From IMG/VR virus record IMGVR_UViG_3300032246_000221, positions 1 through 31,409 of that record: DNA of 31,409 bases; one strand, given 5' to 3'. Within the stretch, counting starts at the first letter, position 1; every line of letters starts with the position of its first letter. Positions 30,053 to 31,148 of the stretch are shown one piece after another. Position numbers and translations under genes: made by a program. The notes under the pieces were generated by a model. The model ran no database searches. It saw nothing but the letters and a program-made list of their open reading frames with translations, and had not been told where the DNA came from. This DNA comes from a virus.

Positions 30053-30282
30053 CAAAACACCTCGTCATCCATCCAATGTTTCACGGGCTTGGTGCTGGGC
30101 AACAAAGCGGCTATATCCCGCCGTGTGGCTGGTTTTCTGTCTGACCATTGGTGTTCGCTGCACATTGGGCGCTGGCCTTCCATGTGAACTGACCAGCGTT
30201 TTGGGCATCCTGGCACACTGCACATCAGGCGCTGAACCTCATCAATCGGGTCTTTTTTGGTGTCTGGTTTTACAAAGTTCAT
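30052..30282 (-). CDS. Small zinc-binding-like protein (76 aa)
   Basis: Residues 20-45 carry Cys21, Cys26, His33, Cys41 and His44 within MCSVPGCPKRWSVHMEGQRP and MCSEH. This is a likely zinc site. The remainder is basic then acidic, ending KHWMDDEVF. The gene overlaps the replication initiator by ATGA. It could be a DNA-binding helper for replication, but its role is not established. Confidence 0.72.
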   Translation of the reverse strand: MNFVKPDTKKDPIDEVQRLMCSVPGCPKRWSVHMEGQRPMCSEHQWSDRKPATRRDIAALLPSTKPVKHWMDDEVF

Positions 30283-31043
30283 TTTTGGTACTTTCCATCA
30301 ATTATTTTGGCGAAATTGGTTGCATTCACTATCCACACCAGATCAGGTCGCCATGTCCTGTCCTTGGTTTCAAACCCCTGCGCCAGCTTGGTGTCGTTCG
30401 CAATGTAGTTAAAAAACGAATCCCACCATGCCAGTCCATCGGCTTGGCTTGCATACCCCTGTGGGCTAAATACAGACGGTTTAGCGGCTTGCAACCACCT
30501 TTGCCGTAGGTTGGTCTGCCTGACTCCATCCCACACCCGTGGCTGGGCAAGCTGTGGCAAATGCTTTTTGTAAAGATTCAGAATGTCTTGATGGGGGCAA
30601 GTCGGCAACCCTGCCGACAAAGAATCTTTAGATTCTTTATATATATTGGTTAGTGGTTTATGGTTAGTGGTTAGTTGAACGTCTGTTGAACGCCTGTTGA
30701 ACGCCTGTTCATCACCTGTTGAACTGTTGTTCTTCCTGCGTTCAGCAGATGCTCGACCAGCGTTGGATTTTTTCTCAAGGAATGCGCGGTAATCGGCAAT
30801 TTCTTGATCGCATCTTGTGTGATGCCAGCCGCTTTCTGCCAGCCAAAAAAATGAATCCAAAAGCAAATTTATTTCTTCAACAGTTGTGCCAATCTGAAAA
30901 GCCAAAACTTTGGTGTCAGGCTTCAGTGGTTTTTCTGTGTCGTAATACATCCACAAAAGCCGCAAATAGGCCATTGATTGACCATCAGTAAGCCTTGCTG
31001 TGGCCTTGATAAAGTCACCAATGTGGTGCTGGTAATAGTGCAT
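30279..31043 (-). CDS. DUF1376-type replication initiator (254 aa)
   Basis: Residues about 1-95 match the DUF1376 domain (YYQHHIGDFIKATARLTDGQ, then SMAYLRLLWMYYDTEKPLKP), common at the N-terminus of phage replication proteins. A polar linker (about 100-148) follows, and its DNA carries the origin-like repeats at 30601-30728. The C-terminal part (CPHQDILNLYKKHLPQLAQP, later TWRPDLVWIVNATNFAKII) resembles the end of phage helicase-loader or initiator proteins. No helicase gene is visible, so the host DnaB-type helicase is probably recruited. The ATG at 31043 has AAAGG upstream; a GTG at 31064 would add 7 residues. Confidence 0.85.
   Translation of the reverse strand: MHYYQHHIGDFIKATARLTDGQSMAYLRLLWMYYDTEKPLKPDTKVLAFQIGTTVEEINLLLDSFFWLAESGWHHTRCDQEIADYRAFLEKKSNAGRASAERRKNNSSTGDEQAFNRRSTDVQLTTNHKPLTNIYKESKDSLSAGLPTCPHQDILNLYKKHLPQLAQPRVWDGVRQTNLRQRWLQAAKPSVFSPQGYASQADGLAWWDSFFNYIANDTKLAQGFETKDRTWRPDLVWIVNATNFAKIIDGKYQK
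30601..30728. other. Putative replication origin inside the initiator gene
   Basis: Five blocks are visible in order. (1) GTCGGCA-ACCC-TGCCGAC, 30601-30618, perfect. (2) AAAGAATC-TTTA-GATTCTTT, 30619-30638, perfect. (3) TATATATA-type sequence to about 30646. (4) Four tandem 7-bp units of TGGTTAG (one is TGGTTTA), 30647-30674. (5) Five tandem 11-bp units from 30674 to 30728: GTTGAACGYCT three times, then GTTCATCACCT and GTTGAACTGTT. Periods of 7 and 11 are not multiples of three, so coding does not explain them. Lambda places its origin in gene O in the same way. Confidence 0.82.
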
Positions 31044-31148
31044 TTTTTTACCTTTTTCACGCACCTTTGAAAAGAAACGGCGGCAGGGGAAGGTGTAACC
31101 CTTTTCGGTCTGCTCATGACTTCAGACCTAGCCGTGTTTCAAACAATT

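Follow-up and report, generated by a model that had tools for sequence, protein, structure and literature searches.

Origins of replication lying inside a gene are already known. In phage lambda, iterons followed by an AT-rich region are located in the middle of gene O, over the flexible linker between the DNA-binding N-terminal domain of the protein and its P-binding C-terminal domain (PMC7466680, PMC6022878). In phage SPP1, oriL lies in gene 38 and associates direct repeats with an AT-rich unwinding element inside the gene of the origin-binding protein, the helicase loader and the helicase being gp39 and gp40, respectively (PMC6316719). The RepA_N protein of pSK41 has a winged-helix N-terminal domain, a dispensable linker whose codons hold the origin and a C-terminal domain conserved according to host genus; the N-terminal domain and the origin can be exchanged together, as in pPR9 (PMC5703833). 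Finally, oriV of RK2 combines TrfA iterons with four 13-mers in the DUE, and the initiator binds one strand of the latter (PMC4081077). As far as titles and abstracts tell, no paper on DUF1376 in the open-licence literature deals with origins.

Here, we analysed a 31,409-nt stretch of viral DNA (hereafter the window; the record is incomplete). The segment 30601-30724 is very likely a phage replication origin situated within the linker of its own initiator gene, a reading for which no binding, melting or replication data exist. The features of the locus are as follows.

30279-31043, minus strand: DUF1376 gene, putative initiator (PF07120, E 1.1e-20), likely 254 aa, beginning MHYYQHH...
30726-31022, minus strand: codons of the N-terminal winged-helix-like domain (residues 8-106), proposed to bind the iterons
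30618-30725, minus strand: codons of the disordered linker (residues 107-142; AF2 pLDDT <50)
30674-30724, minus strand: 11-bp array of class A, GTTCAACRGRC on the coding strand, proposed iterons (TRF 4.6 copies, score 74)
30647-30675, minus strand: 7-bp array, AACCANN on the coding strand, about four units (TRF 4.1 copies)
30636-30647, no strand: AT-only run TTTATATATATT, adjoining the 7-mers and overlapping the foot of hairpin 1
30619-30638, minus strand: hairpin 1, AAAGAATC/GATTCTTT, perfect 8-bp stem with a 4-nt loop
30601-30618, minus strand: hairpin 2, GTCGGCA/TGCCGAC, perfect 7-bp stem with a 4-nt loop
30282-30596, minus strand: codons of the C-terminal domain (residues 150-254), O-like, an exchangeable module proposed to recruit a helicase or its loader

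On the coding (minus) strand, the 11-mers are thus followed by the 7-mers, the AT run, hairpin 1 and hairpin 2. The 11-bp array obtained the top TRF score and is the strongest tandem repeat of the window at all periods from 5 to 40. Its lag-11 segment score was 26, whereas 60 Markov genomes of equal length did not exceed 12.0; for lag 7, the score was 12.5 and the Markov maximum 11.5. When the protein and the codons of the gene were kept fixed, the periodicity remained significant at lag 11 (z 13.6, p 0.003), lag 14 (z 4.4, p 0.003) and lag 7 (z 2.9, p 0.013), 0.003 being the lowest value attainable with 300 permutations. Elsewhere in the 31.4 kb of this incomplete record, neither a second (AACCANN)2 nor another 7- or 11-bp array of this kind was found. 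The two hairpins abut, and the pair folds as single-stranded DNA with -13.3 kcal/mol, against -2.9 for shuffled sequences (z -6.6). An earlier note, made from the sequence alone, had placed in 30601-30728 two perfect back-to-back hairpins, an AT-rich stretch, four 7-bp tandem units and five 11-bp units. All of these held except the last count, which was slightly generous: three units are good (30674, 30685 and 30696), one is degenerate (30707, GTTCATCACCT) and one is a partial unit of 7 bp (30718, GTTGAAC). GC skew was discarded as an origin indicator, since most genes lie on one strand and the skew is confounded by gene orientation.

The PF07120 match of the gene product reached 74.2 bits, compared with a gathering cut-off of 30.1. 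The reading frame is open from a GTG at 31064, and because the MHYYQ beginning is conserved (M1, H2, Y3, Y4 and Q5 are almost invariant across 82 relatives), we placed the likely start at the ATG at 31043. AlphaFold2, run for the N-terminal domain with an alignment devoid of rows from annotated records, predicted residues 1-108 with a pLDDT of 94.8 and a winged-helix topology. In a Foldseek search of the PDB, this domain mostly retrieved winged-helix regulators, none below E 0.05; the label 'winged helix' therefore rests on the topology of the model. Sequence searches of the PDB gave no meaningful match, and a protein search of genome contigs gave no relative. The C-terminal domain alone matched the PHROG families phrog_5810 ('replication initiation protein', E 2.3e-13) and phrog_345 ('replication initiation O-like', E 2.1e-8). 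The predicted disordered linker coincides with the repeats and hairpin 1, and both flanking domains are well folded in the model. The protein is thus predicted to have the layout of an initiator, with a winged-helix domain and an O-like C-terminal domain joined by a disordered linker whose codons form the repeats. A Pfam scan of the protein found DUF1376 (PF07120) only, and neither Phage_rep_O_N, the lambda O family, nor RepA_N (PF06970). PHROGs already labels some DUF1376 families as primosomal protein.

The locus shares with lambda O in-gene iterons and an AT-rich region over a linker, as well as a C-terminal domain related to O-like PHROGs. However, its N-terminal domain is DUF1376 and not that of lambda O, its 11-bp units follow each other at 11-bp spacing instead of forming four 18-bp dyads, and an ordered 7-bp array stands where lambda has a plain AT-rich tract; tandem hairpins are a further difference. 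As in SPP1, direct repeats and an AT-rich element lie inside the gene of an origin-binding protein (putative in the window), but SPP1 has a Gram-positive host and no DUF1376, and no sequence relation to the window has been established. The resemblance to RepA_N concerns the winged-helix N-terminal domain, the origin in the linker and the exchange of both as a unit. The families are nevertheless different (PF06970 versus PF07120), and for pSK41 four Rep boxes and no second 7-bp array are described (PMC5703833). RK2 offers a model for the 7-mers, as it combines double-stranded iterons with a second class of repeats that are AT-rich; however, it possesses DnaA boxes and an unrelated Rep family, and its origin is not described inside the rep gene. 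In the Rac prophage, the DUF1376 gene ydaU is followed by the ATPase gene ydaV and its C-terminal domain matches an O-like family, whereas its 11-bp units are weak and the 7-mer array is missing. These TGTTCAA-type units are found in the ydaU linker of E. coli K-12 (L079, 3620-4477), which might be the site of the Rac origin oriJ.

To characterize the periodicity beyond the window, DUF1376 genes were collected from IMG/VR, phage and E. coli records, and 96 genes with <90% protein identity were kept. Tandem segments were scored at lags 5-24 against a null in which codons changed places only between positions of a gene that encode the same amino acid, so that protein and codon usage remain unchanged. 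At p≤0.01, lag 7 was significant in 82 of the 96 genes, lag 14 in 76 and lag 21 in 39, whereas lag 11 was significant in 46 and lag 22 in 28; any other lag reached significance in 0-3 genes. The null was well calibrated, with 18 of 1440 tests at the other lags at p≤0.01. Retaining one gene per N-domain cluster (60% identity) left lag 7 significant in 23 of 27 genes and lag 11 in 12. Where both arrays are carried, the 11-mers precede the 7-mers in 43 of 44 genes, and in the lone exception (L072) the two array calls overlap within its own 7-mer array. Fourteen of the 96 genes do not reach the threshold at 7 bp, and roughly half have no significant units of 11 bp. These results show that the coding region of the putative initiator contains tandem repeats and that the 7- and 11-bp repetition is kept as DNA and is not a consequence of the protein.

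One could argue that the linker peptide itself is selected and that the DNA period merely follows. NHKPITN and NQEPITN indeed recur, and peptide and DNA repeats are tied, because a 7-bp repeat yields a 7-residue repeat in any frame. However, the protein-preserving permutation rejects this explanation across the family, the choice of Asn and Ile codons depends on the DNA unit and the linker is predicted to be disordered. A protein-level cause is thus all but excluded. Within the 7-mer arrays, CCA accounts for 99% of the Pro codons (40% in the rest of the genes), ATA for 89% of the Ile codons (27%) and ACC for 77% of the Thr codons (28%). All 147 Asn codons followed by His or Gln are AAC, whereas 69 of the 70 followed by Asn are AAT. 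Codon choice in the arrays is dictated by the 7-mer DNA unit.

The AACCANN core of the 7-mer changes little, with AAACANN and AACTANN as variants. The arrays contain 63-70% A+T, compared with 50-58% directly before and after them, and in most relatives the AT-rich element consists of the 7-mer array itself. A general AT-rich tract beyond the 7-mers was ruled out, as A+T drops again right behind the arrays. A G-quadruplex on the complementary strand, where GG runs occur, was also set aside, since units of the AAACANN/AACTANN type in L264 and L285 lose the GG and keep the 7-bp period. Scanning IMG/VR with the bare DNA pattern (AACCANN)5 returned at least 120 loci. Among these 120, 117 lie in open reading frames with a DUF1376 match (116 in sense orientation, 106 non-redundant), including one short antisense match that is not secure (L430, E 0.0007). 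Two of the remaining loci (L384 and L394) are in reading frames cut at the contig end and resemble DUF1376 linkers and C-terminal domains; the third (L429) appears unrelated. The 7-mer thus marks the DUF1376 family. In the literature searched (open-licence only), neither the 7-mer DNA nor its peptide was found in a replication context.

Unlike the 7-mers, the 11-mers switch between classes. Their cores are GTTCAAC in class A (that of the window), GCGAACGC in class B and AACCCA in class C, and a few genes have others; the classes are mutually unrelated in sequence and mostly have 11- or 22-bp spacing. Mapped on the N-domain tree, the iteron class requires 6 changes, against a shuffled mean of 24.7 (0 of 200 shuffles as low), whereas the C-terminal family requires 21. 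Moreover, the window and L019 share 100% identity in the N-terminal domain and 38% in the C-terminal domain, while the window and L022 share 41% and 98%, respectively. From these class changes and pairs, it follows that N-terminal domain and 11-mers travel together and that C-terminal domains are swapped at or after the repeats. In a blastn search with the gene region, only the repeat segment produced the matches to Moraxella phages and Methylophilaceae phage P19250A. The tracking of the N-terminal domain by the 11-mer class fits a reading of the 11-mers by this domain. It is support and not proof, since physical linkage alone would also favour their travelling together.

In six class A relatives (L033, L299, L303, L314, L315 and L317), we noted a second 11/22-bp array, AACGTCCGTTGAAC..., at gene positions about 109-146, i.e. 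within the DUF1376 domain codons and far upstream of the linker arrays; it could represent a further binding cluster. In addition, RNA structure in the first 60 bases and in bases 100-160 of DUF1376 genes exceeds the synonymous null (z -9.2 and -8.2), values that are possibly inflated by relatedness.

Two other functions can be considered for the repeats. According to the first, they are recombination joints for the exchange of C-terminal modules; the C-domains are indeed swapped at or just past the arrays, and Erf and exonuclease genes lie nearby in the relative L009. However, joints require neither an 11-bp phase nor unrelated 11-mers that track the N-terminal domain. Modular initiators of the lambda type would equally lead to exchange at the origin, which may be a by-product. 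We consider this explanation very unlikely. According to the second, the 11-mers are an operator through which the protein represses or roadblocks its own gene, replication starting elsewhere. Autoregulation is conceivable for a winged-helix protein that has a cluster of sites within its gene, and iterons often serve in both replication and autoregulation. However, an operator does not explain why the AT-rich 7-mers are invariant and the order is fixed, it accounts for neither the initiator-type C-terminal domain nor the hairpins, and the window offers no alternative array of either period, within the limits of the incomplete record. An operator alone thus seems unlikely, and an origin remains the preferred reading.

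Concerning the hairpins, a stem of ≥5 bp, mostly with a 3-4 nt loop, follows the 7-mers in 62 of 90 genes, compared with 210 of 551 other windows taken from the same genes. The pooled best stem was 5.34 against 4.20 in the synonymous null (z 11.6, inflated by relatedness), and the per-gene test was weak (11 of 90 genes at p≤0.05). Conservation of the hairpins is thus carried only by the pooled test and by covariation, and an excess of structure is likewise seen in two segments of the N-domain codons. For hairpin 1 and its relatives, four of the eight pairs are altered on both sides with pairing kept, which is only illustrative because the set was chosen for a shared TAAA loop. The hairpins are present in relatives whose C-terminal domain is nearly the same and whose N-terminal domain is just 29-49% identical, and they therefore belong to the downstream C-terminal module. 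They might be RNA elements of the initiator mRNA, acting in attenuation, antitermination or stability, as two abutting hairpins with covarying stems would form in RNA too. However, no match was found in Rfam, a terminator T-run is missing and the repeats are not covered by this explanation. We lean against it.

Several claims of the earlier note can thus be judged. Selection on the DNA held, in view of the protein-preserving null, the differing 11-mers at the same spacing and the codons dictated by the 7-mer. Repeat conservation among relatives with diverged protein, the lack of which was one of the refuting conditions named in the note, was strongly confirmed. An origin within the initiator reading frame is supported by the sequence and the predicted layout, without initiator-binding or copy-number data. 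Three points had to be corrected: the two-class arrangement is not restricted to this gene and is general in DUF1376 genes; the hairpins belong to the downstream module; and the AT-rich stretch, listed separately, is in most relatives the 7-mer array itself.

What is shown thus comprises the repeats at DNA level, their conservation and order across the family, the class following the N-terminal domain and the exchange of C-terminal domains, to which the predicted domain layout can be added. The mechanism is inferred by analogy with lambda O, SPP1 gp38, pSK41 RepA_N and RK2 TrfA; this concerns the binding, the melting and the recruitment, as well as the functions given to the 7-mers and hairpins. 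In the model we propose, the DUF1376 winged-helix domain would bind the 11-bp iterons head to tail, on one DNA face since each unit is one helical turn from the next. The resulting complex would strain and open the adjoining AT-rich 7-mer array, one exposed strand of which would probably be held sequence-specifically by the initiator, like the RK2 13-mers by TrfA. The C-terminal domain would then recruit a helicase loader or the helicase, and the hairpins beside the opening would probably aid replisome loading or priming, or delimit the melted stretch.

Beside the gene, in the lineage of the window, we recognized no gene for a P-like loader. In Moraxella and Acinetobacter relatives, the next gene belongs to phrog_1524, and that of Acinetobacter weakly resembles P-like helicase loaders (phrog_109, E 6.6e-5). 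In L009, divergent genes for a YqaJ/RecE-type exonuclease and an Erf annealing protein lie upstream of the initiator (1266-2639), a neighbourhood that may point to a joint recombination-replication region.

A bolder reading, which could equally prove right or wrong, is that DUF1376 constitutes a large initiator family, of phages and prophages alike, and that the origins of its members use a two-part code, with class-specific 11-mers and a near-universal 7-mer as a melting element read by sequence. The 11-mers would change with the N-terminal domain, while the 7-mer would stay constant across hosts, iteron classes and C-terminal domains; it is conceivable that its single strand is recognized by the initiator itself. 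In the open-licence literature, we found no description of DUF1376 proteins as a family of initiators, of an ordered 11+7 bp design, of a fixed 7-mer combined with switching 11-mers or of the 7-mer as a means of finding origins. As our search was limited to such papers, we make no claim of priority.

With this analysis, a domain of unknown function that occurs in phages of Acinetobacter, Moraxella, Vibrio, Pseudomonas and uncultured freshwater hosts becomes a predicted initiator whose origin can be mapped. The 7-mer should permit origins to be called from the sequence alone in many phage contigs. The family also lends itself to the study of how the recognition sequence of an initiator changes while the melting element stays fixed, and of how phages swap host-interaction modules through an origin.

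Finally, we noted two particularities in annotated phage records. A CRISPR spacer match is annotated in the DUF1376 gene of Vibrio phage 1.183.O, near the linker (L078, 3370-3399). In Moraxella phage Mcat25 (L075), the 7-mers are preceded by one fewer 11-bp GACCGTTCAAC unit than in Mcat21 (L074), and the DUF1376 gene of Mcat25 is annotated as two open reading frames (L075, 3010-3444 and 3509-3826), the frame having seemingly shifted because one iteron was lost.
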